From a virus, in IMG/VR virus record IMGVR_UViG_3300027733_000036, positions 1-64,000 of that record: DNA of 64,000 nt; one strand, 5' to 3'. The notes beneath the pieces are model-generated. The model worked only from the letters and a program-made list of their open reading frames with translations, made no database searches and was not told the origin of the DNA. Positions 1,475-28,911 of this stretch are shown here, piece after piece; the first letter of the stretch is position 1; each line of letters starts with the position of its first letter. The position numbers and the translations under genes are program-made.

Positions 1475-4400
1475 ATGGCCTCTGCATACACATTAAAAGA
1501 TTATCTTTTAAATCCAGATGCAGATCCTATAAAAGGAATCACTGCTTTGGCAGGCAAGTACAGAGGTAGTAACTATCTTTCTGAAGTTGATGCTAGTGCA
1601 CGTGGTACTTTTACTCTTGTTAAAAGTATTGCTAAAGGAACATTCAGATTTGGATCTGAGGTTGTTAAAGCGCTAAACGATAAGACTAATTTCAAGCAGT
1701 ACTTGATGACTGCTACAGATACTGCGATAGGCAAGGGCGCACAGTTAATTGGTGCTGCTCCTGGTAAAAACTTTATTAACTTTACAGAGACTGTACTTGC
1801 AGAAAAGACAGCATTATTTAAAGATGTAACTGCGAAATTAGCATCTTATGCTGCAGCAGGCCAAGGCGATACTTTTGGACAAATACTGAGTGGAGCTTCA
1901 AGTCAAGGCATTAGGGATTTAAAATTAAAACTTTCGGCAATGTCAGTCTTTAACTTTAAGACACCTGACATTATTAGAAATGCTATGATTGTGGACATTG
2001 AGACTGGTGGTCTTGGAAGAAATGCTCCAATACTTCAGCTTGCCATGATTGATATGGAAAATCTAAATCAGATCGACAAGTTAATTTCAACCCAAGAAGG
2101 TAGAACTTCGATTACTCGGATGTCACCTTCTGAGCAAATGGAAAAAGGATTTCTTGCTTTAGATATGATGCCTACTGCTTTGCTTACTGACACTGCAGCG
2201 GAGAATGCCGCAGGTGAAGCAAGAGAAAGAACATATAGAGTTGTTGAGCACACCCCTGAAAGCTTAGATAGTTTCAGAACACTCTTTGGAGGATGGGCAG
2301 AAAGTAAATATGATTTCCTTAAAAAGTTCTATGAAGAAAATGCAGGTGCTGATGGTGCCATAGATGATGAGAAGATTACAGGCATCTTTAAAAAACTAGA
2401 AGAGCAAGGGTTTGTTGAACTTGCAGACGGCCAGCGTATTTATAGCCAAAGAGAAGCTGCTAAGTGGTCTATGATATTTGCGAAGCAAGGAAGTGACAAT
2501 AATAAAGCATTAATTGCTGCAAATATGACCTTTGAATCCTTCAGACTTGGCAAACTTTGGGAATACTTTACCCAGAATGTTTCTGATAAAAGCAAATTAC
2601 CAAACAAGAATAAATTCTTTACCGCTATTGTTCCTTCTGTGGATGACGCAGGAGAAAGACAGATATCTGTTATTCGACCAGCAGATGACGGAATAGGAGC
2701 GCATGTCAGGGATTTCAAAGGCAATTACAATGTAGCAATGTTCCCAGAGGACCGTGTTCCTTTAAATCAAGATCCTGATATTATGAAAGCTTTCAGGACT
2801 GGACCAGAAGGAATTCAAGATCTATCAGAAATTAGACAAATGTTTGATGCATACTGGAAGTCACAGTATAAAAGAAACATTATGGATCCTACCAACTATC
2901 ACTATACACAAGGTGTGGATAGATTAAGAATGGAAGGGAAAACCAATGAAATGATTAGTCTTTTCCCAATGTGGGAAAAAAATATAGGACAAGGACTTCA
3001 TAACAAAGATCAGCTTGAACTTACTAAGATGTTATTTTCTGGTCTTATGCAAACTGGATATATTCCAACAGGGCCAGATGTATTTTCTGGTACAAAAATT
3101 GACTGGGCATCTAGGGCCTTCTATGGAGCAAAGGAAGAGCATTTAGCTTTGATGGACACAGTTCTTCAGGGAAAACTTTTAACAGATGCAAAACTGTATG
3201 AAACAGTTAAAGATGTCTATACCGTAAACCAAGGAAAAGAAACCGCGTCAATTGGTGGACAGATGAAGTCCCTTATTGCGGCAACAAGTATACTGTTTGA
3301 CAGCAAGAAAAGAGGATGGCTAAGTCTTACTTCATACTTGAAAGATACGGAACTTGAGCCTATAACAACAGATGCACAAGGTAGAGTTCTTTTTGATGTA
3401 GATGAAAGCAGTGCAAATCCTCTTCTTGCCAGATGGAATCAGGGAACAATAGGTGATGTAACAAAAAATTACAACATTGACAAGGAACTTCTTAGGATTC
3501 ATGAGACTGCTAATCTGGTATCTGGACAAGCATCTTTGTTTGATGCAAAAAAGGAATTAACTGTTGATGCTTTAAAATTGGACGAAGAAGGTAATCCTAT
3601 TATCAAAAGAGAATTGCCTTATCCAGATGAAAAGCCAGGAAAGGTTATTAAATTAGAAAACGCGGAAGGCATAGTAGATGAAGTTATAGTTAATAGGCCT
3701 ATGCCAGTTGCTGATTTGAGTGGTGAAATTCAATATCACACTGAACCAATCAATATTCAGACTGATGCCTACGAGCCATTTAACCTTGGAACTCGACAAG
3801 GCCAAGTCCGGCATGAAAAAGTTACAAAGGATGGAGCAACATACTCTTTCTTTAATAAGACGCATGACTATCATCTAGTAGACGATATGAAGAAAATGCA
3901 CGCAGACTTGATTGCAGGCGGTGCAAGTGCGGAAACAGCGCATAGGCGTGTTTTTGAACATATGGTTGGGCAGTATGCTGAGAGTGAAAGCATTGCGAGT
4001 AGGGGATTAACTCCAGAAAGTTTGATGGAAAGGTTTGAGACTTTAACAGGAAGACTTCGGGAACCAAATGGAAGTCTTGGACAGAAATTGACTGATGAAT
4101 TAAAGTTGAGATTTGATCAAGGTGATGGAGCTCTTACCCGGCAAATAATAGAACAGACTAAAGGAACTCTAGATCAAATTTTTAAGAATGTTTCCTCTAA
4201 GGGATATGGTCTGACTATAGGAGGTCTAGGTAGAGGACTACATGAATTGAGTAGTTCTTTAAGTGCTGTTAAATTTGCAAGACCTCAAAGTGTTGGTCAC
4301 TTTAAGGCGATGGCTAGCCTGACAATGCAAGGATTAGGAAAAATAAAACTACAGAGAGAAACCGCAGATAGGTTTCTTGCGAATGCTGTTTCTCCTGCGG

Positions 4401-5464
4401 GTGCGGGAGGAAAGATTGCGGTATCTGCGCTGAAAGACGCAAGTTGGTTTGTTTCTAATGTAGGAAGAACTGCTGGTGCTATAGGTGGAATAGTTGGTGC
4501 TGGGCTTGCTCTTGCAGCCGATTACATGATTGATCAACCTAGTTGGAAACCAACAACTGAAGCAATTTTAAAAAAGAGTGGTGATGAGAAACAAATCTTA
4601 GAAGGCGGTAACTATGCCGCTGGCGGAGATATTAAGAGTGCTTTGACTTCATACACTGCACCAATTGACAAAACAAATGATGCTGGTGTTGCACTCCAGG
4701 CAGTTGATGGTGCAAAGGTTGACTACGCGGTTGGTGACGGTGATACAGTTGAATTGATTAGCAAAGGCTTTCTTGGCATGGGCAGAAGAAAGCTAGGTAG
4801 TGTGCGCGTATCTGGCATTGACACCCCTGAAACAGCTCACGAAGGAGTAGGTACTGGGCCAGGAGAAATGGCATATGCTCAACCTGGTAAAAATTACTTA
4901 ACAAATGTTTTATCTGCAAGAACAGGATCTCAAGTTGTAGTTGGCGGAAGACAAACTTTTGGTCGTTCAGTTGGTCTTATAACAGACCAAGAAGGAACAA
5001 ACTATTCATATGAAATGGTTAAGCAGGGACTTGGTTCAGTTCTTTTTAGAGAAAAATCTACGGAAGATTTAGTTAGCCAAACAGCTTATATGCAAGCTGA
5101 ATACTCTGCAAAAAGCAAAGGCAAGGGCATGTGGAGTCAGCCTTTCTATTTTGGAGCTCAAAGCGGAATGGGTGGAGCTGAAAGAAAAGGATGGAATACT
5201 TTAAGTGCTTTTAGTTATAATCGTTTTCATTTTGATAAAAGCCCAGGCACATCTGAGTCTCAAATGATTGAAAGATATGATCAATCTCCAGAGTTAAATA
5301 GTATAAATAACTTAACCAGTTCTAGTTCTCAGCTCAACTCAATTACACCTATTACTTCTTCTGAGTCTGGTAATAGTAGAAAATTAATGATGGCAGAGAT
5401 GCAACAGGCTGCATTAATGGGCAGCATGCAAAGAAACCGAGGCCGTGGTAAGGAAAGACGATAA
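1475..5464 (+). CDS. Giant nuclease-bearing virion protein: DnaQ-like exonuclease plus SNase domain
   Basis: 1329 residues; ATG 13 nt after the previous stop with a weak AGAAG upstream. Residues ~170-400 begin with DIETGG (D174, E176), the Exo I motif of DEDD/DnaQ exonucleases, followed by a plausible Exo II (AANMTFESF, ~residue 350). An Exo III motif is not clear. Residues ~985-1015 form a Gly/Ala-rich membrane-like segment. Residues ~1080-1225 are a staphylococcal-nuclease domain: GDGDTVE (D1088, D1090), R1111 five residues before D1116, IDTPE with E1119, GR with R1164, and a terminal GKGMW. These match D21, R35, D40, E43 and R87 of SNase, so activity is likely. The tail is Ser/Asn-rich and ends in basic residues. 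Size, membrane segment and the neighbouring giants suggest a packaged or ejected protein that could cut host or competing DNA. That role is inference; the SNase assignment is firm. Confidence 0.7.
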   Translation: MASAYTLKDYLLNPDADPIKGITALAGKYRGSNYLSEVDASARGTFTLVKSIAKGTFRFGSEVVKALNDKTNFKQYLMTATDTAIGKGAQLIGAAPGKNFINFTETVLAEKTALFKDVTAKLASYAAAGQGDTFGQILSGASSQGIRDLKLKLSAMSVFNFKTPDIIRNAMIVDIETGGLGRNAPILQLAMIDMENLNQIDKLISTQEGRTSITRMSPSEQMEKGFLALDMMPTALLTDTAAENAAGEARERTYRVVEHTPESLDSFRTLFGGWAESKYDFLKKFYEENAGADGAIDDEKITGIFKKLEEQGFVELADGQRIYSQREAAKWSMIFAKQGSDNNKALIAANMTFESFRLGKLWEYFTQNVSDKSKLPNKNKFFTAIVPSVDDAGERQISVIRPADDGIGAHVRDFKGNYNVAMFPEDRVPLNQDPDIMKAFRTGPEGIQDLSEIRQMFDAYWKSQYKRNIMDPTNYHYTQGVDRLRMEGKTNEMISLFPMWEKNIGQGLHNKDQLELTKMLFSGLMQTGYIPTGPDVFSGTKIDWASRAFYGAKEEHLALMDTVLQGKLLTDAKLYETVKDVYTVNQGKETASIGGQMKSLIAATSILFDSKKRGWLSLTSYLKDTELEPITTDAQGRVLFDVDESSANPLLARWNQGTIGDVTKNYNIDKELLRIHETANLVSGQASLFDAKKELTVDALKLDEEGNPIIKRELPYPDEKPGKVIKLENAEGIVDEVIVNRPMPVADLSGEIQYHTEPINIQTDAYEPFNLGTRQGQVRHEKVTKDGATYSFFNKTHDYHLVDDMKKMHADLIAGGASAETAHRRVFEHMVGQYAESESIASRGLTPESLMERFETLTGRLREPNGSLGQKLTDELKLRFDQGDGALTRQIIEQTKGTLDQIFKNVSSKGYGLTIGGLGRGLHELSSSLSAVKFARPQSVGHFKAMASLTMQGLGKIKLQRETADRFLANAVSPAGAGGKIAVSALKDASWFVSNVGRTAGAIGGIVGAGLALAADYMIDQPSWKPTTEAILKKSGDEKQILEGGNYAAGGDIKSALTSYTAPIDKTNDAGVALQAVDGAKVDYAVGDGDTVELISKGFLGMGRRKLGSVRVSGIDTPETAHEGVGTGPGEMAYAQPGKNYLTNVLSARTGSQVVVGGRQTFGRSVGLITDQEGTNYSYEMVKQGLGSVLFREKSTEDLVSQTAYMQAEYSAKSKGKGMWSQPFYFGAQSGMGGAERKGWNTLSAFSYNRFHFDKSPGTSESQMIERYDQSPELNSINNLTSSSSQLNSITPITSSESGNSRKLMMAEMQQAALMGSMQRNRGRGKERR

Positions 5465-7689
5465 TGGCAAATTTTGTTACAGAAACATTGACATTCATTG
5501 GAGCATTGCTGTCTAGCACACGTGCAGCAAAACATGAAATTGGAAATACTCTTTATGAAGCTCTTCTAAAACAACAAGGAACAGCAGCTCTTGGCATAAA
5601 AGAAAGTTCTGGTTTTAAGAAATTTATAAATCAGAGAGTCCAAGAAGCTGCTAGCGCCAGTCCTACATTTAGTAAGAAAGGAGTGGCGGGCGGTTCGGCA
5701 ATTCTTGCAGGTACTGCGATAGGAGCATTTGCTGGCTTAGGAGCTTCAATCCTTTCAGGAGATCCAGGAAATCTTAGTACAACAATGACTGTTGGAGCAA
5801 CACTTGGTGCATTTGCAGGTCGACGTGCCGGAAGAATAGGCTCATTACTTGAGAAAGCTTTACCTAAAGGGGAAGACATAGCTCAAGACTTTGCAAAATT
5901 TTCTACTAATGAAGAAAAAATAGCAGCACAAGAAGCAAGTAAAGTAACTCCTCCTCGACAAATGGCAGAGCCTGCTCCACCTAGAAAGGTAATGGAGGAT
6001 GATCCAAGCAATTATAGTCCTGCACAAAAACGCGCAGTACAACAGTTTGAAGAGCAAGAGGCTGAGATTAGCAAACCTAAGCCACCGCCTGAAAAAGTAG
6101 ACGAAGCAGCATTATATGCAGACGATGTTGAGAGTGAAGGACAAAAAATTGCTGATATGAAGCGGCAAGAAAGAACCGCTCCTGAGACAGATCCAAAGAA
6201 GAGAAAAGAAAATAGGAAGGCATACCAAGAAGCAAAAAGAGAACAACAAGAGAGCAGAGAAACAACTCAGCAAGAGGAAAAAACACAAAAGTCAACTCAA
6301 AGAAAAACAGCTGCTGGTCAGACAATTGAGCAGGAAGCAGAGACTCAGACTGACTACAATGAACTAGGCCAAAAAGCAAATTCAATTGCAAGCCCAAATC
6401 AAGGTATGAATAAAGACTTTGGACCTTTAAGTAAACAAGGGACAGGAGCTAGTCATCTTGCAGACTTTGCAGCAGCACCAGTTATAGGTGCAGCGGTTGG
6501 TGGCGTCCAAGGGGCAATGGCATATGACAACTCAAAAGATCAAGAATTTCAAGGACTTAAGGCTACGGGTACTGCAAAGGCTTTTACTCAAGGAGCAATG
6601 AAGGGAGCGGCAGTAGGCGCAGTAGGTATTGCTGCAGTTAAAGGCGGACAAAGAATGTTTGGTGGCTCTGGCACTAAGTCGTTGACTAGTAGTTTTCTTC
6701 AAGGAATGAAAGTAGGAGACAGAGTTGAAAGTCAAGGATGGGCGGAAAGTTCACAGCTAGGTACAAGAGCTTTGAGTGAGACTGCTAATGAAAGTGGCTT
6801 AAAGGCAAGTCTTGACACAATGGAAGATGCAAGCCGTCAACGTACAGGTCTAGAAGAGCAAATTACGAAAGCTGGGGCTTACACTCCTGATAATGCAAGA
6901 GCATTCCACTCTCAGACAACAGACGACATATCAGGCATGTCTAAAAGTGAATCAAATCAAAGACTTAGAGATATGTCACCTGCAGATAAAACTCGATATA
7001 CTCAAGGTGGAGAATTAAATTCATTAGACAATAAAGTACAACAAAGCGCAAACGACTTTGTTAACTACAACACTGGTGCAGATTTAAATCAAAATCGGCC
7101 TGGTAAAACTATTTCAGAGCTTCCAAACTTAGCAGCATTCTATGGTGGCCAGGCAGCAGCCGGTGTACAGAAAAGCATGAGTGCAACGAGAAGTTTCTAC
7201 AAAGAAAACGTTGCACCTGAAGCAAAAGCGGAAAGTTCCTCATTTTTTCGCAGAAGAAATCCAAACTATCTGGGTATGGCAGATGAGACTGAAGCTTCAA
7301 TACTTGATGTGCCGCAGCATCATGGACCTGCAATGTCAGGTTTTAAAAGCGGTATGTCTGGTCTGGGTGGTGCTGCAGTCTTTGCGGGTGCCGCTGGTGT
7401 GGCTGCCTATACTGGAGCAATGAGCAGTGCAACAAATGGAGGCCTTGACCATCCAGCAAATGTACTGACAGGGGCAAGAGATAAATACATGAGTGCTCAA
7501 GCTCAGATGCAAGCCGATTCAAGTGAAAGAGTAAGAATGACAAACCCAGGAGCCATTGGCTTGAATGATATAGAAGAAAATTACTTTACAAATCCTTCTA
7601 TGAGCCCAACAAGAGGACGGCATACTCCGGGTAAGTATAACGACACTGGAAACCTTACACTAGCTCTTTCAGCTTTAAGAAGAGGTTAA
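5464..7689 (+). CDS. Glycine-zipper internal virion protein candidate
   Basis: 741 residues; its ATG overlaps the previous stop (TAATG), implying translational coupling. I recognise no enzyme domain. Gly/Ala-zipper hydrophobic stretches lie at ~residues 73-95, ~105-120, ~340-355, ~378-395 and ~635-655. The middle (~150-310) is highly charged, Gln/Glu/Lys-rich and probably coiled coil or disordered. A ~85-residue polar tail ends in LALSALRRG. Glycine zippers are common in proteins that insert into membranes or form pores, so a role in genome delivery or as an inner-capsid protein is plausible. The first ~20 residues (FVTETLTFIGALL) loosely resemble the N-terminus of the giant at 45301 (FLTSLGAIL), perhaps a shared targeting or assembly signal. 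Function is unknown; only the sequence class is supported. Confidence 0.55.
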   Translation: MANFVTETLTFIGALLSSTRAAKHEIGNTLYEALLKQQGTAALGIKESSGFKKFINQRVQEAASASPTFSKKGVAGGSAILAGTAIGAFAGLGASILSGDPGNLSTTMTVGATLGAFAGRRAGRIGSLLEKALPKGEDIAQDFAKFSTNEEKIAAQEASKVTPPRQMAEPAPPRKVMEDDPSNYSPAQKRAVQQFEEQEAEISKPKPPPEKVDEAALYADDVESEGQKIADMKRQERTAPETDPKKRKENRKAYQEAKREQQESRETTQQEEKTQKSTQRKTAAGQTIEQEAETQTDYNELGQKANSIASPNQGMNKDFGPLSKQGTGASHLADFAAAPVIGAAVGGVQGAMAYDNSKDQEFQGLKATGTAKAFTQGAMKGAAVGAVGIAAVKGGQRMFGGSGTKSLTSSFLQGMKVGDRVESQGWAESSQLGTRALSETANESGLKASLDTMEDASRQRTGLEEQITKAGAYTPDNARAFHSQTTDDISGMSKSESNQRLRDMSPADKTRYTQGGELNSLDNKVQQSANDFVNYNTGADLNQNRPGKTISELPNLAAFYGGQAAAGVQKSMSATRSFYKENVAPEAKAESSSFFRRRNPNYLGMADETEASILDVPQHHGPAMSGFKSGMSGLGGAAVFAGAAGVAAYTGAMSSATNGGLDHPANVLTGARDKYMSAQAQMQADSSERVRMTNPGAIGLNDIEENYFTNPSMSPTRGRHTPGKYNDTGNLTLALSALRRG

Positions 7690-17988: not shown

Positions 17989-20255
17989 TGAGATCTGGAA
18001 AACTTAGTCGCCCACCTCTTAACATTGACAAAGAGGTAACTCAGAATCTTAGTCTATCTGATGTTACAGTCATTGACCCCAACTTAACTAAAGATGCGCA
18101 AAACAAAGGCTCTACTTTAACACCAGAGCAAGCCTCAAAAGTTATCTCTGACTTAATAAATTCATTTAAAAAGAATCAGGTTTATAACCAAGTCTTAGAT
18201 GAGAAAGTAGTCTTTGGTGCAAATGATGAGGCTTATAATCCAGAAGCTGTAAATCTTCTTCGCCAAGACAATAGAAAAAGAGTTTCTGAGTTAAAATCTA
18301 AGGTTGAAAATCTCATTACCAATCTTGATAAGGAACTAGAAACAATTGATTATGATTTGCCATACGACGTGGACAACGAAAACCACAAATCACTAATGGA
18401 TTTCTATAATCCAAATCATGTACTTGGCCAAGCTAGTTATACTGAAAGTAGAAAGATAAAAGACAAGAAAGAAAAACTAGCAGAAATTAAGGCAGACATT
18501 GCTTTAAATAAGTTTTATTATAAAAGTAACAGTGGCAAGTACATTGACATAGAAGAAAAGCATAAAGAATTTAAGCAAGAAGCAATTACTTGGTTGCTTG
18601 ATAATTTCAAAAAAAATGATGCTAAATATATAGCAGCAGAAGTTATCTCTCCTGGCTCTGGAGCAGGTATAGAATTAGGGTATAGAATTTATCTTTTTAC
18701 TAAGTTCCAAGTCAAGGATATCGAGAATACTACTTTTGCTGGTGCTCTAGATGAGTTAACTGGATACTGGGACAATGATGAAGCTTTTCTCAAAGAAGGG
18801 AATATCTCAAATAAGCTTGCTATCATTCCACTTAGAAGTTCTGCAAATGACATAAAGAATTCAGCTTCTTTTATCGAAACTACTCTTGGGGCAGTAGACG
18901 AGCAAAATTCATATGTAGATAATTTGTTCGGAAAGAAAGAACCTTTGAATGTAGGATTCAAAGGTAGAAAGTTTCATTTTGAGTTTGACGACGTCTTAAG
19001 CAATTGTTTTGATTGTTTTCTTGATGGAGCATGGGGAGGGCTTAAAAGCTTTAAGCTTGGCTTGGAGTTTGAATTTGATGCTAAGTTGCTTTTGGATAAT
19101 CTAACTTTTCTTTTTGACAAAATTCTAAATGCCCTTGATACAGAATTTCTAATAAAACAAAACTATTGCAGCCTAGTTAGACTAGGTACACTTTGTCCAA
19201 TTGAGATTGCATTCCTTGCGGCATCTATTCTTGCAATGATTAGATTTTCATGGCAAGAGGTTGTCTTGAATTTTTCAGGTTTCTTAGGAGACTTGATTGC
19301 AATGATTCTTGGACCTTTACTTGCAGCTATTAAACTAGGATTAAGATGGTCTTTCAGTCCTTGGGAGATATATGCAGGTTGTACATCTAAGTCTGTGATC
19401 TCCTTGATGGACATAAACAAAGCCTTGCCTAATCCTACCTATGGCTGGAGTATGTCTGAGATCTCAGATATTCATAATGGTAAAGTCCCAGAGAATGATA
19501 AAGAAAAAGAACTCCTAAGAAAATGGAGTGATCATGCAAATACCCTTTCTAGTATTGATAGAGCTGACTTGCAAGATGCTGTGAATTCATTTGCTGGTTA
19601 CCTTAGAGACTTTGATATTTCCCAGACCAATCCAACTAAAAAGCCAGACAAAGCTTCTACAGGGGAAGAGGTTGTTAAGTTTTTGTCTAATGTTGCTTTT
19701 GTTGAGAATGGAGATATTGTTGAGATATTTAACATGATACTTAGTGGCGCAGGAAAAATGCTAGAAAACAATTGCAGCCAAGTGACTTTAGCAATTGAGG
19801 GATTAAATAGTTGGCTAAATAGTAAGACAGCAACAAGAATTCAAGTTGCCGCAAAGATTATGGCACTAAGCACTCTTTATTCTATTCTTGGTGCGTTGCT
19901 AGAGTTAGCTGATAGAGGTATTGAAGTTTGTACGAAAATGCCTGTTTATGATCAGCAAGGCAATGAGACTGGGTTTGTTATTGAGTCTCCTTTCTCTAGC
20001 AGTGAACTTACAAAAATAATGGAAGAAGCTGGCGCTGCTATAAATGGGAAGAGTCAACCAGGAGTTATTGTTGAAAACAACATAGGCCTTAAGGATATTG
20101 AAGGCAAAAATACTGCTCAGTTGTATAATCCTCTAACAGATAGAAGATTTAACTTAACTAACTGTGACAAAGCCAAATCATCTATAATAAGCAAAGGTGA
20201 AACTTTGGATTTCTGGAAAAAGATTGCACTTGGAGTTAATATAGATAATGTTTAA
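17988..20255 (+). CDS. Unknown 755-residue protein with hydrophobic core, upstream of portal
   Basis: ATG overlaps the previous stop. N-terminal ~210 residues are charged and helical (coiled-coil-like around 85-115 and 150-175). Around residues 380-460 two strongly hydrophobic stretches occur (near CPIEIAFLAASILAMIR and LIAMILGPLLAAIKLG), compatible with membrane insertion. A further helical hydrophobic stretch lies near 630-645. Eight or so cysteines are scattered (NCFDCF, NYCSLVRLGTLC). No known family is recognised. Its location between terminase and portal suggests a virion component; it could be an inner head or injection protein. The end overlaps the portal start by 8 nt. Confidence 0.55.
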   Translation: MRSGKLSRPPLNIDKEVTQNLSLSDVTVIDPNLTKDAQNKGSTLTPEQASKVISDLINSFKKNQVYNQVLDEKVVFGANDEAYNPEAVNLLRQDNRKRVSELKSKVENLITNLDKELETIDYDLPYDVDNENHKSLMDFYNPNHVLGQASYTESRKIKDKKEKLAEIKADIALNKFYYKSNSGKYIDIEEKHKEFKQEAITWLLDNFKKNDAKYIAAEVISPGSGAGIELGYRIYLFTKFQVKDIENTTFAGALDELTGYWDNDEAFLKEGNISNKLAIIPLRSSANDIKNSASFIETTLGAVDEQNSYVDNLFGKKEPLNVGFKGRKFHFEFDDVLSNCFDCFLDGAWGGLKSFKLGLEFEFDAKLLLDNLTFLFDKILNALDTEFLIKQNYCSLVRLGTLCPIEIAFLAASILAMIRFSWQEVVLNFSGFLGDLIAMILGPLLAAIKLGLRWSFSPWEIYAGCTSKSVISLMDINKALPNPTYGWSMSEISDIHNGKVPENDKEKELLRKWSDHANTLSSIDRADLQDAVNSFAGYLRDFDISQTNPTKKPDKASTGEEVVKFLSNVAFVENGDIVEIFNMILSGAGKMLENNCSQVTLAIEGLNSWLNSKTATRIQVAAKIMALSTLYSILGALLELADRGIEVCTKMPVYDQQGNETGFVIESPFSSSELTKIMEEAGAAINGKSQPGVIVENNIGLKDIEGKNTAQLYNPLTDRRFNLTNCDKAKSSIISKGETLDFWKKIALGVNIDNV

Positions 20256-21792
20256 ATTAAAAGCACAAGTTATTAATCTTAAGAATCTTGCATCATCCGT
20301 TAAGGTAATAGATGATGCTGAGAGTAAGATGCCTGGGCCTAGTCTAGAAAAGACAAAGGATCCAGTATTTAACTATAGAACGACACGTCCTTACTTCATG
20401 AATGACTGGCAAAAGCTAGAGCATGATTTTAAGGAAATAGATAAAGTTGCTACAATTGAAGCTTACTTACAGATTAGCTTTGACAAGAAACTTTCTCTTT
20501 TCATGAAAGAAGGCTATGAGGTAATAGGGAAAGACCCAGATCTTGTAGACTACGTAGAGCGCAGACTTAAGGAAGTTTGCTACGTTAGTCGTACTACGCC
20601 TAGACAGTTTATAACTGATATAGCCAAGAATATTATTAGATATAGTAATTGTTTTGTTCTTATCAAGCGCAATGACAAGACATCTGGAGGCTATACTAGA
20701 ACAGACTCTAAAGGGCGCAAAATAGCCCCAATTAGCTCACTTCATATACTTCCTACTAGTATGATCCAGGTTAAGGTTAATGACCTTAAACAGCCTATAA
20801 AGTATCGACAATACAGCGAAGAGGATTGGACAGAAAATACTCGTCCGACCTCAATCTATGAGCCTAGTGAGATCATACATTTTCATGTTAATAAGCTTGA
20901 AGGGTTTATTGTTGGTACGCCAAGATGCAGTGCTGCTATTGAAGATATTAAAGCTTTGCGTCGAATTGAAACAGACGTAGAAGTTTTACTTCATCAAAGC
21001 ATCTTTCCAATTGTACAGTATAAGATTGGAACCGAAGCAATGCCTGCTACTATTCTTCCAGATGGTAGAGATGAGATTACTATGGTTACTGAGGTTATTA
21101 ATAATCAGCCACCAGAAGGTTTCTTTGTTACCCCTGAACGTCATGAAATTAAAATGATTGGCGCAGAAGGTCGTTCTCTTAGAGCTGAAAGTTATCTTGA
21201 TTACTTTAAGAAACGTGTTCTTGCTGCCCTTGGCCTATCAACGGTAGATATTGGGGAAGGTGATACTGCTAACCGTTCTACAGCAGCTACTATGTCTAGT
21301 AGCCTTATTAACGCAGTCAAGAGTGATCAACTTGTTCTTGAAGAGCAAATCTATGCTAATCTTATTGTTCCTATGCTTCAAGAAAGTGCAGAGGACAATA
21401 GTTTTGACTGGCTAGATCCTAATAACAAAGTTGTTCTTAGATTTAAAGAAATAGATGTTGAGAATCAAATTAAAAAGGAAAACGCAGCTATCCAGCTTTG
21501 GCTTAATAGCGCGATTAGTCATGATGAGTTAAGAGATCGCATTGGTATGTCCACTGCGAAAGATGAGGACTGGGATCATTCATATTACAAGATGGTTACA
21601 GAAGCTCAAGAACTACTTAGACTTGGCGCAAATCCTATGTCTCCTCTTGCTGAGACATCTGCCAAGAGTAACAGGACTCCTATGTCCTCTGGTGATCTGC
21701 AGAAGGCTAGAGATCTAGCTGCTGGTAATCTAGCAAAGAAGCCAACAGTGTCCGAGAAAGATTCAGGCAATACTAAAAAAAAAATTCAGTAG
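20248..21792 (+). CDS. Portal protein
   Basis: 514 residues in the normal frame. The dodecameric portal sits at the packaging vertex, threads DNA and joins head to neck. Family features: an N-terminal region with conserved-type DWQKLEHDF, a central HILPTSMIQVKVND, YEPSEIIHFHVN (typical of portals), then RRIETDVEVLLHQSIFPI, FVTPERHEIKMIG and a helical crown region DIGEGDTANRSTAATMSS. It overlaps the previous gene by 8 nt. The C-terminal end TKKKIQ is encoded by an A10 run followed quickly by TAG; slippage there would continue into the MuF frame and give a 726-residue portal-MuF fusion (see findings). Confidence 0.9.
   Translation: MFKLKAQVINLKNLASSVKVIDDAESKMPGPSLEKTKDPVFNYRTTRPYFMNDWQKLEHDFKEIDKVATIEAYLQISFDKKLSLFMKEGYEVIGKDPDLVDYVERRLKEVCYVSRTTPRQFITDIAKNIIRYSNCFVLIKRNDKTSGGYTRTDSKGRKIAPISSLHILPTSMIQVKVNDLKQPIKYRQYSEEDWTENTRPTSIYEPSEIIHFHVNKLEGFIVGTPRCSAAIEDIKALRRIETDVEVLLHQSIFPIVQYKIGTEAMPATILPDGRDEITMVTEVINNQPPEGFFVTPERHEIKMIGAEGRSLRAESYLDYFKKRVLAALGLSTVDIGEGDTANRSTAATMSSSLINAVKSDQLVLEEQIYANLIVPMLQESAEDNSFDWLDPNNKVVLRFKEIDVENQIKKENAAIQLWLNSAISHDELRDRIGMSTAKDEDWDHSYYKMVTEAQELLRLGANPMSPLAETSAKSNRTPMSSGDLQKARDLAAGNLAKKPTVSEKDSGNTKKKIQ
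21775..21784 (+). other. A10 slippery run at portal/MuF junction
   Basis: Ten consecutive A bases, read in the portal frame as AAA AAA AAA followed by ATT CAG TAG. The -1 frame has a TAA at 21774-21776 just before the run and none from 21777 to the MuF stop at 22427. The downstream open frame therefore starts inside the run, as expected for programmed -1 frameshifting or transcriptional slippage. Confidence 0.7.
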
Positions 21793-21887: not shown

Positions 21888-22427
21888 ATGGACTTTGATG
21901 AGTATAGAGAAGACGTGAATGGATTAGTTAGCCATCTAAAAGAGAAAGCTGACTATGACATCCAACCTGACTTTACCATTGATGCTGCATTTGAGCGTTT
22001 TTCTATTATGCTTAAAGACAACAGCATTAAGGCCTATATAAAAGGTTACTCTGAGTATGCCGACTCTTCTAATCTAACGAACGAGACGCATACTGGTAAT
22101 ATAGAATTCCAGTTGAAGGTTCAGAAGTTTTTCATAGACAAGCTACACATTGAAATGCGCAATCGCCAAGGTAATACTATTACTGATACGGCTAAGACAA
22201 TTGGGCACAGGATGATGACTATCTATGAGACAGAAAGAATGAGAAGCTATAACTGGGGCGTATTCAATGCTTTAAAGGATAGTGGTGAAGAATCATACCA
22301 GGTATATAATCAAAGTAGTCAGTCTATAATAGATAATAGAAAAATCTCAGATAGTAAGTATTATGATTTACCGCCTGATCATCCTAATAGCAAAGTCATT
22401 ATAAGGAAGGCTAATGAAGATAAGTAA
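21888..22427 (+). CDS. MuF-like minor head protein (possibly made as a portal fusion)
   Basis: 179 residues from the first ATG, but the frame is open from 21777. No SD precedes 21888 (the upstream bases are TTACAAATAGTATC), so independent initiation looks poor and entry by slippage from the portal is attractive. The segment MMTIYETERMRSYNWGVFNA followed by KDSG fits the MuF/SPP1-gp7 signature (TE-x-x-R...N-x-G...A...G) of minor head proteins that bind the portal and may be ejected. It is shorter than typical MuF proteins and carries no toxin domain. The 105 nt between the A10 run and the ATG encode a Ser/Asn/Ala-rich linker in this frame. Confidence 0.65.
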   Translation: MDFDEYREDVNGLVSHLKEKADYDIQPDFTIDAAFERFSIMLKDNSIKAYIKGYSEYADSSNLTNETHTGNIEFQLKVQKFFIDKLHIEMRNRQGNTITDTAKTIGHRMMTIYETERMRSYNWGVFNALKDSGEESYQVYNQSSQSIIDNRKISDSKYYDLPPDHPNSKVIIRKANEDK

Positions 22428-24105
22428 GAGACTATTACAAGAAGGTATCGTTCAAGACTATTTTGTTAATAGTGTTAAGGGCGATTTTACCCATGAAGTA
22501 TGGGACAAAAAGAGTCCTCATTTTCTTGATTTCAAATACTTTATTAATGATGGTGTTGCGGAGAATAAGGTCGGCCTAGTAACTCTTACCAAGGTTACTC
22601 ATGGTATGAGGCCTACTCAGAATAATCTTATTTATATGCCTGCTGATCTAAAAGACGCTATCCCTACACTTACTAATCCATACAATATCCCCATTAAGCC
22701 TATGCATAAGGAAGTTGCTGTTGTTGATGGTAAGAAGATTGAGAATAGAGAAGTAGGCGCAGTTGGTCGGGCTATTGGTGGTACGTGGGTAGACAATCCT
22801 AAGGCTGCCTATAATGTTAGCTCTGGAATGATCAAGGATGGCCTTATGCTTAAGGCTCCTGATGTTGCTATGGCTCCCTATATGAAGAAGCTTGCCAAGT
22901 CTGGAATGATGACTGATGAGGATTTTGAGGGCCTTGGATGGGTACTTGTCAAGGGACTTGTTACAGATCCAGAAGCCGTAGAGAAAACTCTAGATGGTCG
23001 CTATCTTACAGTCAGCGTAGAAATGACACCTAATGACCTCTATGACTCTATCAGCGGTAGATCATATAAGACTGATGAGATGGAATGGGATATTGGCGAT
23101 GACATTGATGGCGTTAAAGCTTATGGTGTACCGAGTGGTCTCCGTTACCGTGGTTATGCCTATGTCACCCATCCTGCTGATGTTCACGCAAGAGTTATGA
23201 ATTACAAAGAAGTTGGAGGCGACGCACTTCAACAATATCTAGAAAACTTCAAGACTACTATGGTTGTCACTGATTGTTTCAAGAATGCAGTTACAGATAT
23301 CTCTGACTCGGAGATTATGGCCAGCTTTGATAATGGTCCAGTTGCTACGGTGCCAACTGAGATTGTTGAAGATCATGCAGATCTTTACAGTCAGTTATCA
23401 GAAGAAGAGAAAGCGCTTGCGGATTCTTTGATGACTCTTGCTGCCAAGGTCGGGCCTTTAGATAAGGCTCCTGGTATCTGGGTTGGCTATGAAAGTGGCC
23501 CAGAAAATGAGAATCTTAGCATTGGCGTTAAGTGTGGCAATTGTGCTCTTCATGCTAGTGAGAATTGTTGTAAAATTATTTCCCAAACTATAGAACCAAA
23601 TGGCTACTGCAGATTTGCTGTTATCCCAGATGGGTTAGTCTCAGCAAGCAAGCAAGAACCTATGGAAGACCAAACCAAATTAACTAACCAAGAGGAGCAA
23701 GAAATGCCCACTGCACTATCAGAAGACAATAAGAAAGAAATTCTTTCAATTGTTGACGAATATATTAAGTCAAAATCTATTGCTCCTGTAGAGGTAATGT
23801 CAGAGCTTGAAGAATTACGCTCTGGCAAAGCTATCACAGATGAGAAACTTGCAAAGGTTGAACTTGATAGTAAATCACTACTAGATTCTGTTAAAGAATT
23901 TCTTGCTAATAACTTTAATGTAGAGTTAGCTGACGATATGTCGGCTGAGATGTTCTCCGAAATGGTAAAGACTATCAGCATTGATGATGCTGTCTGGACT
24001 ACTGCTTACGTTAATAACCTTCCTGATAGTTCATTCTTCTACATTACTCAAGGTGGCGAGAAGGATGAAGAGGGCAAAACTAAGCCTCCGTCACCTTCCC
24101 TATAA
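22414..24105 (+). CDS. Prohead protease-like / scaffold protein with Cys cluster (N-terminal part)
   Basis: 563 residues, ATG with GGAAGG upstream, overlapping the MuF gene by 14 nt. The first ~210 residues resemble capsid maturation proteases: KPMHKEV (H98), a REVGAVGRAIGG strand pair, and GRYLTVSVEM (S201), where His and Ser would be catalytic. Residues 372-401 contain C374-x2-C377-x7-CC385/386-x12-C399, similar to the small HiPIP-like Cys motif found in some phage head proteins. Residues ~440-520 are acidic and helical, scaffold-like. The end reads SSFFYITQGGEKDEEGKT and then diverges to KPPSPSL-stop. In proteins of this type as I recall them, that sequence continues directly into SLRHLPYK..., which is present here in the +1 frame (next gene). 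Either the gene is recoded, truly split, or has an indel. Confidence 0.6.
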   Translation: MKISKRLLQEGIVQDYFVNSVKGDFTHEVWDKKSPHFLDFKYFINDGVAENKVGLVTLTKVTHGMRPTQNNLIYMPADLKDAIPTLTNPYNIPIKPMHKEVAVVDGKKIENREVGAVGRAIGGTWVDNPKAAYNVSSGMIKDGLMLKAPDVAMAPYMKKLAKSGMMTDEDFEGLGWVLVKGLVTDPEAVEKTLDGRYLTVSVEMTPNDLYDSISGRSYKTDEMEWDIGDDIDGVKAYGVPSGLRYRGYAYVTHPADVHARVMNYKEVGGDALQQYLENFKTTMVVTDCFKNAVTDISDSEIMASFDNGPVATVPTEIVEDHADLYSQLSEEEKALADSLMTLAAKVGPLDKAPGIWVGYESGPENENLSIGVKCGNCALHASENCCKIISQTIEPNGYCRFAVIPDGLVSASKQEPMEDQTKLTNQEEQEMPTALSEDNKKEILSIVDEYIKSKSIAPVEVMSELEELRSGKAITDEKLAKVELDSKSLLDSVKEFLANNFNVELADDMSAEMFSEMVKTISIDDAVWTTAYVNNLPDSSFFYITQGGEKDEEGKTKPPSPSL

Positions 24106-25132
24106 GGGAGAAGATGGCAAGGTTGATCTTCCACACCTTCGTAATGCTATTGCTAGAGCGCCACAAGTAAGTGGTCTTGCTCCTGAGAAAGTCAAATCTA
24201 TTCAGGCTCGTGCTCAAAAGATGCTAGCTCGTATGCAAGATGCTGGTAAGTCAAAGATGGATCAGTCTGAGTTTGGAGAAGATATCCAAGATCTATTTGG
24301 TCCAGAAATGGATGATGAAGCTCAAGGTTTTATTCCTACGCCTGGTATGGCATCAGCTGCTAAGCGGGGCCTTGAGTGGCGTGGAGAATTCAAGCGCGGT
24401 GGCACGGGTGTAGGTGTTGCGCGTGCGAGAGACATCATGAATAAAAAAGAACTTTCTCCTTCTACTGTTATGCGTATGAAAAGTTTTTTTGCTCGTCATG
24501 AAGTTGATAAGAAGGCTTCTGGCTTTAGCCAGGGGGAAGAAGGTTTTCCTTCTGCTGGTCGTATTGCTTGGGATCTTTGGGGTGGTGATGGTGGCAAGAC
24601 TTGGGCTTATGCCAAAGCTGCTCAGATTGAACGTATGAGAGCCGAAGACTCAGTCAAAGGTTCTTGGGTTATGGGAGACTTTGTTTACAATGAGCCTGTT
24701 GCTGAGGTTGGCGTCGAGGATACTTATACCCCCGAGAAGACTTACACTACTCCTTCAACTGCTACATTTGCAGTGGGTGACTTTGTTGCTTATCGCCTTG
24801 ACAGTAAAGGTAATGAAGTTGGTGTTAGCTCTGGTTCACTTGGTGAGCAAGATGATGCAGTTGAAATGAAGGAAGGATACGGCGTTATTGATGCAATGCA
24901 TAGCAAAGGTGTTGTTACTCATGGAATTAGTTGCAGTGTGGAGGGTTCTGAAGAGGATCCCGCTACTGTTCTCACTATTGCCAGGATGAATGAGGATGGC
25001 TTATATGACAAGACTGAAGAAGTAATTGTCAAAAAAAGATCTGAGCTTAGAAAGATTATGGCTCCTGTTGTGTGGAGCAAGAAAGAAACTCCTCCTCTTG
25101 GTGCTTATCCTGCTCCTGGTATAGGTGGCTAA
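24065..25132 (+). CDS. C-terminal domains of the protease/scaffold protein (separate frame)
   Basis: I choose the ATG at 24065 (355 residues), because AGGTGG sits 8 nt upstream and the homologous sequence begins here. An in-frame ATG at 23981 would add a 28-residue hydrophobic stretch encoded entirely within the previous gene. Three parts can be seen: SLRHLPYK...DLPHLRNAIAR (residues ~8-50, then a helix), RARDIMNKKELSPSTV...FFARHEVDKKASGFS...GRIAWDLWGGDGG (~120-190), and an SH3/Tudor-like domain GDFVAY...YGVIDAMHSKGVV...EEDPATVLTIAR...KKRSELRKI (~235-340). The same domain string occurs in phage head-maturation polyproteins. The product may be a scaffold/head-assembly protein made by reinitiation, or part of a frameshift fusion with the preceding gene. 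Confidence 0.6.
   Translation: MKRAKLSLRHLPYKGEDGKVDLPHLRNAIARAPQVSGLAPEKVKSIQARAQKMLARMQDAGKSKMDQSEFGEDIQDLFGPEMDDEAQGFIPTPGMASAAKRGLEWRGEFKRGGTGVGVARARDIMNKKELSPSTVMRMKSFFARHEVDKKASGFSQGEEGFPSAGRIAWDLWGGDGGKTWAYAKAAQIERMRAEDSVKGSWVMGDFVYNEPVAEVGVEDTYTPEKTYTTPSTATFAVGDFVAYRLDSKGNEVGVSSGSLGEQDDAVEMKEGYGVIDAMHSKGVVTHGISCSVEGSEEDPATVLTIARMNEDGLYDKTEEVIVKKRSELRKIMAPVVWSKKETPPLGAYPAPGIGG
24079..24105 (+). other. +1 frame junction between protease/scaffold and its usual C-terminal domain
   Basis: Frame 1 reads ...GKTKPPSPSL-stop; frame 2 reads KLSLRHLPYK through the same bases. A +1 slip at CCT-C (24085-24088) would give GKTKPRHLPYK, close to the uninterrupted family sequence. CCU/CCC proline codons are known +1 slip sites. 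A natural indel or sequence error is equally possible. Confidence 0.5.
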
Positions 25133-25145
25133 AGTATAGGAATTA

Positions 25146-25154: not shown

Positions 25155-25199
25155 CACTATGTAATTATTAATTTAACTTAATCCTTTTGGAGGAATAAT

Positions 25200-26012
25200 A
25201 TGGAAACTGAAATGACAACCGGCGCGACTTCTGTCGCTGATGCTCTTGAAGACCTACTTTGCAACGTAGTTGTTTTTTACTTCACTGCGCATCGTGCCCA
25301 TTGGAATGTGGCTGGCCCAGATTTTGCTGAGTACCATGAGCTATTTGGCAATATTTATGATGATGTATACGGCTCAGTAGATGATCTTGCTGAGAATATT
25401 CGCAAGCTTGGGGCATTCCCTCCTTCTCTTACTCACATGGTAGAGACGGCGTCATTCAAAGATGACTCTATGACTACTGAAGCTAAAGACCTTGCTCTTG
25501 ATATTTACAAGAAGAATGTAGCTATGATTGCTATGCTCAAGGGTACCTTTGATGCTGCCAATGCTGCAAATGAGCAGGGTGTTGCTAACTTTCTTGCTGA
25601 GCGTATTGATATGCACCAGAAATGGCAGTGGCAACTTGGAGCTTCTCTTCAGGCTGCTGGCATGGAAATTCCTAGCGAATCTCCTGCCGATGAAATCAAA
25701 GAAGAAATGAGTGGACCAATGGACTCTGTCGAAGAGATAGTAAGTGAAATTGCTGACAGTTCAGAGTCAGAAGAAATTATTATTGAAGATTCTTCTGAGC
25801 TCAAAGAACTTGGCAAGAAGCTTGATGTTAGCACCATCGAAGACGCAATGGATACCACAGAAGAATACTATACATCTGTAGAGCGCAGAGTCGCTAGTAA
25901 ATATAAGGAATTACGAAATCATGATATAAATAAAGCTGAGAACTATCTTGTTCAGCAAGTGCGTTCTGGCTTTGTTTCAGGAAAGTTTAACCCACTAGAT
26001 GTGAAAGTCTAA
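25200..26012 (+). CDS. dps: Dps-type ferritin-like protein with acidic/helical C-terminal extension
   Basis: 270 residues, strong SD (GGAGG, 7 nt before the ATG). Residues 1-~155 are a Dps four-helix domain: AHWNV-x-G-x2-F-x3-H-x2-F with D and E following gives H34, H46, D61 and E65. Their 12/15/4 spacing equals that of the E. coli Dps ferroxidase residues (H51, H63, D78, E82), so iron oxidation is likely retained. Residues ~160-205 are a strongly acidic linker absent from normal Dps (~160-190 residues). Residues ~210-270 form a charged helical domain ending FNPLDVKV. The gene lies between the protease/scaffold and the decoration and capsid genes, so the extension may tether Dps to, or package it into, the head. 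Protection of DNA or host from oxidants is the known family role; packaging is inference. Confidence 0.88.
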   Translation: METEMTTGATSVADALEDLLCNVVVFYFTAHRAHWNVAGPDFAEYHELFGNIYDDVYGSVDDLAENIRKLGAFPPSLTHMVETASFKDDSMTTEAKDLALDIYKKNVAMIAMLKGTFDAANAANEQGVANFLAERIDMHQKWQWQLGASLQAAGMEIPSESPADEIKEEMSGPMDSVEEIVSEIADSSESEEIIIEDSSELKELGKKLDVSTIEDAMDTTEEYYTSVERRVASKYKELRNHDINKAENYLVQQVRSGFVSGKFNPLDVKV

Positions 26013-26033: not shown

Positions 26034-27593
26034 ATGGCAACATATAGAAAGCTTAGAGATATCGATTATGGTAAGCCGATTATCGCCCCTACGCACGGCG
26101 ACACGGTTGCACCTCAGAATGACCTTGCCGCTGCGGCTTGGCTCCCAATTAGCCGCAATGCTACAAATTCGGCCAATGGTTATTTCTCATACAAGTATCA
26201 GCGCCACGTCTTTACCGATATGGTTGTAATCATGCCCGGTAAGCTTGTTGCTCTCACTCGTGAGAGTCTTACTGGTGAGAATGCTACTTCTACCATTAAC
26301 CTTGGCACAGTAGGTCGCCTTGTTCCTGCAGGTATTCGTCTTGCTTGGAAGGCTGCTATTGTCGCTGGCGGTACCACTCCGGTCCTTAAGTATGAGCAGA
26401 AAGATGTAGATGAGCGCATTGAAGACCTAACAACTGGTCTTCCTGTTGCTGCTGCTGTTGAGTACACAGTCACGCAGTTGACTACGCATCTCAAGAGTCG
26501 TGGCCTTATTGGCGCGTCAGAGACTATTGATGCCTTTATTTCTCGCCCAATCGGTGTAGCTGCTAACGTGGTTTATGCCTGGGCTGGTGGTGATGGTACG
26601 CAGCCCAACAAGCTTCGCTTCATGAACTATCGTCGTGAAAATAAGTCAACCTTCTGGACTGGCCAGGACCACACCCTTCGTCTACCTGTTGCTCCTATTA
26701 AGGCCGCGACTGTTACGACTGCTGCAAATACCCAAAAGCTTACTGCTCTTAGTCAGCTTGAAGTTGCTGGTACAGCGCGTTGGATTTTCGGCAATGAAAT
26801 TGGTGACGCAGGCGCTTCGGACCTCTTGGCTCTTCTTCCTGTCCGCTATGCCGATCTAACGAATGAGAACTGGGTGGCTCTTGCTCTTGGTCGTAAGAGC
26901 ATTGAGCATAACATTTACAATGCCATGCAATATGGCACTGTTTCTGCAAGCGCACTTGTTCTTAAGGCTGAGAAGGGTAGCCCAAATCAACTAACAAAGG
27001 TTGGCGATTATTTCGTTGACCGTGAACTTGGTATTCTTTTCATGTATGAGTCGGGCGGCGCTGGCACTCTTGCTACCGCTGGCACTGTTGTCACATTCAG
27101 CTACCTACCCACTGCTGCTGTTGCTCTTGCTGGCTCTAACGTCTCAGACGCTGCTGCAGATACCAGTGATCAGTATGTTGACGTTGCTGTTTTTGCCGGA
27201 GTGACTGGTAATGTCAAGCCTGGCGATTATCTCTCCTACGACAAGTATTCTAACTTTGTCCCTTATGTGGCTCGCACGCCTGAGGTTGCACTCAAGATCA
27301 CTGCTGGTGCTCTTGTTGCCGCCACTACTGGTGACCTTACTGATGCTAGTGTAGCCAAGGTTACTACTTGGGCCAACCCTACTGGCTATCAGCTTCCTGA
27401 AGACATTGTTGGTAAGTGCTATACACTTGACCGTTCACCTAAGGCTGATCTTGCCTCTGTCAAGACTTTCCATGACTATGATGGCGTGTCACTCGCTGAT
27501 CGTACTCCTGGTTCGGCTAATGATGGCCATCCTGCAGAAATTCATCAGTCAAGCGGTGGTCAGTTCGCTGCCATCGTGCGCGTCCTACTCTAA
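26034..27593 (+). CDS. Probable capsid decoration/cement or second head protein
   Basis: 519 residues, SD AGGAG 7 nt before the ATG. The sequence is beta-rich without membrane segments; short pieces such as DMVVIMPGKLVALT and VKPGDYLSYDKYSNFVPY resemble decoration-protein strands. A central TLRLPVAPIKAATV and several Ala/Thr-rich segments look structural. It lies directly before the major capsid gene and shares its GC-rich, C-ending codon choice, which implies very high expression. I infer an abundant head surface protein. No close family is recognised, and a capsid vertex or spike protein is an alternative. Confidence 0.55.
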   Translation: MATYRKLRDIDYGKPIIAPTHGDTVAPQNDLAAAAWLPISRNATNSANGYFSYKYQRHVFTDMVVIMPGKLVALTRESLTGENATSTINLGTVGRLVPAGIRLAWKAAIVAGGTTPVLKYEQKDVDERIEDLTTGLPVAAAVEYTVTQLTTHLKSRGLIGASETIDAFISRPIGVAANVVYAWAGGDGTQPNKLRFMNYRRENKSTFWTGQDHTLRLPVAPIKAATVTTAANTQKLTALSQLEVAGTARWIFGNEIGDAGASDLLALLPVRYADLTNENWVALALGRKSIEHNIYNAMQYGTVSASALVLKAEKGSPNQLTKVGDYFVDRELGILFMYESGGAGTLATAGTVVTFSYLPTAAVALAGSNVSDAAADTSDQYVDVAVFAGVTGNVKPGDYLSYDKYSNFVPYVARTPEVALKITAGALVAATTGDLTDASVAKVTTWANPTGYQLPEDIVGKCYTLDRSPKADLASVKTFHDYDGVSLADRTPGSANDGHPAEIHQSSGGQFAAIVRVLL

Positions 27594-27627: not shown

Positions 27628-28911
27628 ATGTCAAGACTAAAGCACAAGAACCTAGAAATTGCTGATCAGAGTGAGCTTACAGCGCTCATCAAGAACAACG
27701 GTTGGCTTCCTGGCTCAGACCACTCCAGCGACTCACGTCTTTCAATCGAAGACGCGATTACGTCAGCTGAGCTTGGGCCCTGGGTCAAGCACTCAATTGT
27801 TGAGATTATGATGGAGCCAATGGAGCCAATGCTCAATCTTACCCCACTCCTTGATACCATTCCTGCGCCGGATGGTATTACTGAGTTCCGTCTTCCCGCC
27901 CTTTCAGCTTTCACTGTCCATAAGGTCACTGAGCTTGAAGGTTACCGTGAAGAGCGTGTGACTACTGGCGGTGGTATGGCTACGGCCGCCATTGACAAGT
28001 GGGGTGTTATGATCTCCCTTACGCAAGAGGCTATCAAGGCTTCCAATTGGAATCTCCTTGGTTACCTTGCCCGTGAGGCCGGTCGTGCTTTCGCTCGCCG
28101 CAAGGAGACCGAAATCGCTAAGCATATCACGAACATCAGCGTTCCTGCGTTCGACAATCTTAATCCTTCTCAGTCAGCTCTTGGTATCACCACTGGTCGT
28201 GACATTACGCTCAAGACCAATGGTACGCTTACCATGGATGACCTTTTCAATGCGTATCACCTTCTCATCCAGAGAGGTTTCACTCCCGATACGCTAATCT
28301 GCCATCCTCTTACTTACCTTATGTTTGTACGCGACCCCGTCCTTCGTGCATTTGCCATGCAGAGCGGCAGCGGCAATCTCTTTGGTAACTATTCGGGTTC
28401 GGCTGCTAACGTTAGCGGTGTTCCTGATGCCGTTAAGGGTGTCCTTTCAAAGGGTTACTCACGTGGCCAGCTTGGTCTTAAGCCCGATGGTACTGGTGCT
28501 TCACTTAAGGACTTTAACGTTAATGCCATTACAGCTGCTCCTCAGCTTCCTCTTGGCCTTCCGTTTGGTCTACGTATTGTGACTTCACGCTTCATGCCTT
28601 ACGATCCTGCTACTAAGCTTACCGATATCGTTCTTTGCGATAGCAAGTCACTTGGTGCTCTAATTGTTGGTTCAGGCATTGTTGCTGACGAGTGGGAAGA
28701 CAAGTACTTTGAGACCTTCAAGATGAAGTGGTCAGAGAAGTGGGGTATCTTCATGTATAACGAAGGCCAGGGTCTAGTTACGCTTAAGAATATCTTCTGC
28801 GACCAGAACTTCTACTCACCTGAAATTGCGCGTCCTTACTACGATCCTACCTCTGGTTTTGATCCTGCTGGCGCTACAATTGACGGCGGCTCAAACTTCC
28901 CTTCTAACTAA
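27628..28911 (+). CDS. Major capsid protein, HK97 fold
   Basis: 427 residues, SD AAGGAG. Family features: an N-arm followed by MEPMLNLTPLLDTIPAP; an E-loop-like region with VTTGGGMATAA; a spine-helix region LAREAGRAFARRKETEIA; the P-domain segment LTMDDLFNAYHLLIQRGFTPDTLICHP followed by a VRDPVLRAF strand; and a C-terminal GLRIVTSRFMP-type strand leading to LCDSKSLGALIVG. No long N-terminal scaffold (delta) domain is present, consistent with a separate scaffold encoded at 22414-25132. Codon use is clearly more GC-rich than in most neighbours, as expected for the most abundant protein. A strong terminator follows 23 nt after the stop. Confidence 0.92.
   Translation: MSRLKHKNLEIADQSELTALIKNNGWLPGSDHSSDSRLSIEDAITSAELGPWVKHSIVEIMMEPMEPMLNLTPLLDTIPAPDGITEFRLPALSAFTVHKVTELEGYREERVTTGGGMATAAIDKWGVMISLTQEAIKASNWNLLGYLAREAGRAFARRKETEIAKHITNISVPAFDNLNPSQSALGITTGRDITLKTNGTLTMDDLFNAYHLLIQRGFTPDTLICHPLTYLMFVRDPVLRAFAMQSGSGNLFGNYSGSAANVSGVPDAVKGVLSKGYSRGQLGLKPDGTGASLKDFNVNAITAAPQLPLGLPFGLRIVTSRFMPYDPATKLTDIVLCDSKSLGALIVGSGIVADEWEDKYFETFKMKWSEKWGIFMYNEGQGLVTLKNIFCDQNFYSPEIARPYYDPTSGFDPAGATIDGGSNFPSN

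Follow-up and report, generated by a model that had tools for sequence, protein, structure and literature searches.

Does a phage that encodes a Dps-type mini-ferritin among its head genes use this protein in the infected cell, or does it carry it in the virion? This question is raised by a gene at 25200-26012 (+ strand) of the window, the 64,000-nucleotide stretch analyzed here (positions 1 to 64,000 of the IMG/VR virus record IMGVR_UViG_3300027733_000036). An original prediction had proposed that the product is a Dps targeted into the capsid by a C-terminal extension. Our results indicate that the protein is probably head cargo, a ferroxidase loaded into the prohead, and that this freshwater phage probably packs an anti-oxidant protein inside its head.

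The Dps gene and its product

The gene is an open reading frame (ORF) of 270 amino acids (aa) with an ATG start codon, spanning exactly 25200-26012. Its features are the following:

25200..26012, + strand: Dps-tail gene, 270 aa, found in the same place in all clade relatives whose contig reaches the site
25189..25193, + strand: GGAGG ribosome-binding site inside the conserved AATCCTTTTGGAGGAATAA (from the sequence and an alignment of 12 relatives)
25218..25655, + strand: Dps core, residues 7-152, a four-helix bundle plus BC helix (AlphaFold2 predicted local distance difference test, pLDDT, mostly >90)
25299..25394, + strand: ferroxidase ligands H34 (25299-25301), H46 (25335-25337), D61 (25380-25382) and E65 (25392-25394)
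25656..25808, + strand: acidic linker, residues 153-203 (51 residues), mostly disordered, isoelectric point (pI) 4.05
25809..26009, + strand: conserved C-terminal tail, residues 204-270, pI 6.8, ending in SGKFNPLDVKV

Residues 14-151 matched the Ferritin/Dps domain PF00210 (E 8.8e-15; 55 bits against a cut-off of 24.5) and the ORF matched phrog_3636 (E 6.7e-22). The top sequence and fold matches among solved chains were bacterial Dps; for the core, the top PDB matches found by Foldseek were 3iq1 and 1n1q, from Vibrio and Bacillus brevis (template-modeling score by target 0.86-0.92, root-mean-square deviation 1.2-1.8 A). The four ferroxidase residues had been predicted at exact Dps spacing, and this was confirmed: H34, H46 (+12), D61 (+27) and E65 (+31). 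By family match, predicted fold and these four ligands, the window protein is a Dps.

DNA shielding had been predicted as well. However, the pI is 4.5 for the core and 4.4 for the whole protein, and a lysine-rich N-terminus was looked for in the window Dps and is absent (the N-terminus reads METEMTTGA). DNA binding through a lysine-rich terminus is a trait of only a subset of Dps. The acidic core and the lack of such a terminus make DNA binding of the E. coli Dps kind unlikely, so that shielding by binding is a part of the original prediction that was not supported. Head targeting and iron oxidation were supported by the comparisons given below.

A virus-specific subfamily fused to head proteins

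The window Dps belongs to a subfamily with the signature N[EQ]QG[VI]A..RIDMHQKWxWxL, which was searched in IMG/VR and in 84,980 bacterial and archaeal genomes. It was matched by at least 595 viral stretches in the former and by 2 sequences in the latter. Both of these (L134 and L135; L numbers designate the loci collected for comparison) are short contigs of metagenome-assembled genomes, and L135 is probably a mis-binned phage contig because its Dps-protease fusion is of the phage type. No subfamily member was found among 50,697 GenBank phage records, where the best match had about 39% identity over part of the core.

Detailed comparison was made on 60 distinct members. The H, H, D, E ligands and the HWN motif are invariant in all of them; the probability that four given columns are all invariant, when 14 of the 147 columns are, is 5e-5. 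Such strict conservation suggests that iron and peroxide chemistry has been selected, and not only structure, and it supports the predicted oxidation of iron by the window Dps.

An indication of where this Dps goes comes from its fusions. In 16 of the 60 members it is fused in frame to a recognized head maturation protease. Another 14, called B type, join it in frame to a portal-to-capsid head protein that shows homology to the protein encoded upstream of the window Dps (hhalign of the B-type N-terminal part against it: probability 92, E 5e-7). In the B-type locus L085, the fusion lies between a portal and a capsid gene of the same PHROG families as those of the window. The order of the modules varies: protease-Dps-scaffold in A-type proteins (L064 and L075; phrog_9427, 4e-50 and 5e-55), protease-Dps in L110 (S78, 3.6e-33) and Dps-protease in L111 (S78, 1.8e-41), and Dps is also carried by large polyproteins of about 1700 aa or more (L026, L029, L113). 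In the maximum-likelihood tree the window Dps lies inside a clade of 31 rows with 100/100 support. The label "fused" is carried by 26 of these rows, including three incomplete or split ORFs (L071, L072, L097) and two fusions without a recognized protease (L073, L074). In addition, the Dps gene directly follows that of the portal (phrog_776) in L032, L034 and L120.

Head maturation proteases and scaffolds become part of the prohead during its assembly, and consequently a Dps fused to them must enter it. These fusions make head targeting much more likely, and together with the adjacency to the portal and the conservation of the tail they give it indirect and strong support at the level of sequence. 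Prohead entry is thus strongly implied for the fused relatives; for the window Dps we infer it, as well as retention in the virion, activity and DNA protection.

The same arrangement bears on another explanation, namely a Dps that acts late in the cytosol of the infected cell against oxidative stress, its place in the head operon serving only the time of expression and the protein not entering the head. Phage Dps-like proteins have indeed been interpreted as protecting the infected host in gut Gratiaviridae (PMC8008677) and in Lactobacillus phages (PMC6669764), the Dps genes of the cultured phage Privateer and the related podophage BUCT695 sit among nucleotide-metabolism genes and not in the head operon, and three stand-alone members of 144 aa (L107, L117, L126) have no recognized head gene directly beside them. 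Nevertheless, a cytosolic protein accords poorly with the finding that at least 16 of the 60 members are fused in frame to head maturation proteases and 14 more to the homologue of the upstream protein, with a fixed place beside protease or portal, and with a conserved tail that only the unfused head-operon form has, and we consider this explanation unlikely. Delivery of iron or attachment has to be considered too: in the Ferrojan horse hypothesis, put forward for Vi01-like phages whose virions contain a ferritin (PMC10892097), iron held by Dps in the virion would aid entry through host iron-uptake receptors, but the neighbors and fusion partners of the subfamily Dps are head proteins, which leaves this possibility very little room.

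Head cargo is also compatible with the variation found among A-type proteins. L066 has almost the same protease and scaffold as L152 and L158 but is the only one with Dps, and L151, with a protease 98% identical to that of L064, resembles a deletion derivative. Near-identical flanks with and without Dps indicate that the protease/scaffold protein can gain or lose this cargo domain, being a slot where cargo domains get inserted and deleted. The existence of such near-identical polyproteins without the module, as well as the invariance of the four ligands in 60 of 60 members, also argues against a purely structural role, in which the Dps oligomer would be the scaffold core or assembly hub of the polyprotein and iron chemistry would be incidental. 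Although Dps does self-assemble and sits in A-type proteins between the protease and coiled scaffold segments, we regard that role as improbable.

Large head proteins of this kind may be highly composite. L211 encodes, at 3992-7168, a polyprotein of 1059 aa made up of a head maturation protease, a phrog_2859 module, a Cys-rich segment, a phrog_19463 module, Dps and scaffold and is, judged by these predicted modules, an example of head proteins as module collections.

The acidic linker and the C-terminal tail

The extension had been estimated at about 100 residues beyond a normal Dps; it amounts to about 115, comprising the acidic linker and the C-terminal tail. AlphaFold2 gave pLDDT <50 over residues 161-221, which are predicted to be disordered, and 77-92 over residues 221-270, with two confident helices at 226-241 and 243-256. 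The tail was compared in 13 distinct relatives, one of which is truncated where its contig stops. Identity is 72-97% in the tail, 59-85% in the core and 27-80% in the linker (27-35% against the L015-L018 group), and the tail is present and conserved in every full-length member of the window clade. Across these relatives, the ratio of non-synonymous to synonymous divergence (dN/dS) is 0.04-0.27. The original prediction had named a tail not conserved in related phages as evidence against itself; the tail being conserved, such evidence was not found. A function of the tail as head-targeting signal is plausible.

A targeting sequence shared by internal head proteins is known in T4-type phages and is not universal. 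A search for the same tail on non-Dps head proteins had been suggested, but a tail hidden Markov model run against all ORFs of an earlier set of the collected loci and a scan of IMG/VR with the tail alignment returned only this Dps. The possibility that the tail is a shared head-targeting domain, common to the window Dps and other internal proteins, was accordingly rejected. Homology of the tail to DUF5824, suggested by an SVxRRxxxKY likeness, was also discarded since it failed in hhalign (probability 0.3) and in most shuffle tests. DUF5824 neighbors or is fused to Dps in other lineages.

The synonymous divergence (dS) of the Dps tail (0.15-0.34) is low, like that found for the capsid gene at 27628-28911 (0.23-0.27), while the gene between them and most neighbors have values of about 0.5-1.3.

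Neighboring genes in the head operon

The operon runs from terminase and portal through an upstream head protein and Dps to the capsid gene, and the Dps gene comes after the upstream head protein in every related contig that reaches the place. The neighbors are:

20248..21792, + strand: portal protein (phrog_9232, E 1.5e-34)
22414..25132, + strand: upstream head protein, split in the window; a single 908-aa ORF in sibling L001, with a B-type-like N-terminal domain, a four-cysteine segment and a phrog_2859 module
26034..27593, + strand: fast-evolving head-operon protein between Dps and capsid (dN 0.22-0.30; no family match)
27628..28911, + strand: major capsid protein (PF25209, E 1.9e-10; phrog_3922, E 1.2e-9)

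The original prediction had placed the Dps gene between scaffold and capsid genes. This is right as regards the capsid gene downstream and a protease/scaffold-like gene upstream, but the two presumed scaffold ORFs (22414-24105 and 23981-25132) are one ORF of 908 aa in the sibling contig L001. The window copy is broken by an 8-bp deletion at 24085/24086, the two contigs being otherwise 99.96% identical over 20.8 kb. The deletion is probably an assembly or read error and, since it explains the split, a biological frameshift between two upstream genes was rejected. A promoter-like box of the Dps gene's own was not supported either: no sigma70-type site above chance was found upstream of Dps on the + strand, and L005, L010 and L015-L018 lack the extended -10-like TATGCTAGAAT that the window has at 25144.

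The upstream protein and the B-type fusions are putative prohead proteases, a reading taken from position and from landmarks seen by eye. The model of the N-terminal 439 residues of the upstream protein has a mean pLDDT of 29, and because of this low confidence its identification as a protease is based on position and on homology to the B-type fusions. Profile comparison gave no link to A- or D-type proteases.

Two further segments of the upstream protein were noted. Four invariant cysteines, C-x2-C-x8-C-x12-C (...NGYCRF), at 23533-23610 (residues 374-399) resemble a high-potential iron-sulfur protein; the segment is not recognized by Pfam, it recurs in the gene directly after Dps in L032, L034, L036 and L037, and it is possibly, from its sequence, a second redox module in the head operon. 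The phrog_2859 module (KRGLEWR..RGGT.VG..RAR..RHEVDK..PSAGRIAW.LWGGD), at about 24341-24637 (residues 645-743 of the 908-aa L001 protein), also occurs joined directly to Dps, in L081 and L135, as well as in giant polyproteins. Downstream of Dps, the product of 26034-27593 evolves much faster than its neighbors and is perhaps exposed on the capsid surface.

Proposed role of the Dps as head cargo

A Dps carried as head cargo would act as follows. It would be built into the prohead along with the protease/scaffold protein, in most relatives as a fusion domain. In the window lineage it would be free, and in place of a fusion the flexible acidic linker would hold it together with the two-helix tail, docking to a scaffold or capsid partner. 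Dps would then assemble into a dodecamer inside the prohead. Since a Dps dodecamer measures about 9 nm and is too large for capsid pores, it could not leave the closed capsid and would stay with the packaged genome. Inside the head, or upon release into the host, it would oxidize and sequester Fe(II) using H2O2 or O2, and the removal of Fe(II) would suppress Fenton damage to the phage DNA.

Several observations weigh against this proposal. The fifth, auxiliary ligand position is G50 (25347-25349) in the window Dps and acidic in 1n1q and 8ff9. The Dps module is present in 8 loci with A-type proteases and missing from 63, where head assembly can thus do without it. Neither the window upstream protein nor the B-type fusions are matched by a Pfam or PHROG protease model, and the tail was found on no protein other than this Dps. 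Finally, the proposal draws support from reports of Dps peptides in the purified virions of other phages, namely Privateer (PMC7881722), SU10 (PMC4281155) and the Lb. brevis phage 521B (PMC6563214), but the virion Dps of these phages is of a different, metabolic-region type and could be a co-purified contaminant.

Regarding the first point, an acidic ligand four residues after the second His is common, not universal, in Dps, and therefore G50 does not disqualify the protein as a Dps. The position is acidic in 15 of the 60 distinct relatives. Of 11 stand-alone copies, 10 retain the acidic ligand, but only 5 of the 49 fused, portal-adjacent or window-type copies do; the groups are also clades and hence not independent. 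Another variation is found in L005, L006, L007, L010, L012, L013 and L014, where a one-residue insertion in helix B between H46 and D61 shifts D and E by one; its presence in seven distinct loci makes an error unlikely, and it is perhaps a pi-bulge at the metal site.

If the proposal is true, an enzyme inside the virion would protect the packaged phage DNA from iron and peroxide, a matter of relevance to how viruses survive in sunlit fresh water and to the iron held by virus particles. The tail would be a natural tag for loading capsids, and in virus-fraction proteomes Dps peptides would be expected to vary together with capsid peptides. A wider scenario, which we advance only tentatively, is that a large set of uncultured aquatic phages repeatedly made the prohead protease/scaffold a vehicle for a virus-only Dps, each virion thereby having a compartment for iron and peroxide detoxification, and that the window lineage later freed the Dps, with the tail replacing the fusion.

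Comparison with known systems

Bacterial Dps and mini-ferritins (PF00210; 1n1q, 3iq1, 8ff9) share with the window protein the four-helix fold with BC helix, the spacing of H, H, D and E and the HW pair. The window protein differs from them in its C-terminal extension, in G50, in its acidity without a lysine-rich DNA-binding N-terminus, and in the RIDMHQKWxWxL signature, which is nearly confined to viruses.

Dps is likewise phage-encoded in cultured phages (Privateer, SU10 and other C3 podophages, Lactobacillus phages, and Synechococcus phage S-SRM01). However, their sequences reach at most about 35-39% identity to the window Dps over part of the core, and show no protease fusion or tail, and those of Privateer and BUCT695 fall outside the window subfamily on the tree. 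According to the original prediction, a head-targeted version was not known to be described. No description of a Dps-prohead protease fusion or of a tail-bearing head Dps was found in open-access full texts; nevertheless, Dps peptides are reported in virions of the unrelated phages mentioned above, and automatic UniProt entries named "Prohead protease" or "DNA-binding protein Dps" from uncultured phages match this Dps fold. With regard to phage head maturation proteases (Peptidase_S78, phrog_80, phrog_9427), the relatives of the window Dps are domains of such proteins, encoded between portal and capsid genes, whereas the window Dps has a gene to itself and bears its own tail.

The closest analogue in mechanism is the encapsulin with ferritin-like cargo, in which an HK97-fold shell takes up a ferroxidase by means of a C-terminal extension on the cargo. 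The window Dps does not belong to the encapsulin cargo systems, because the neighboring shell protein is a phage capsid protein and the extension of the Dps is a 67-residue two-helix tail and not a short targeting peptide.
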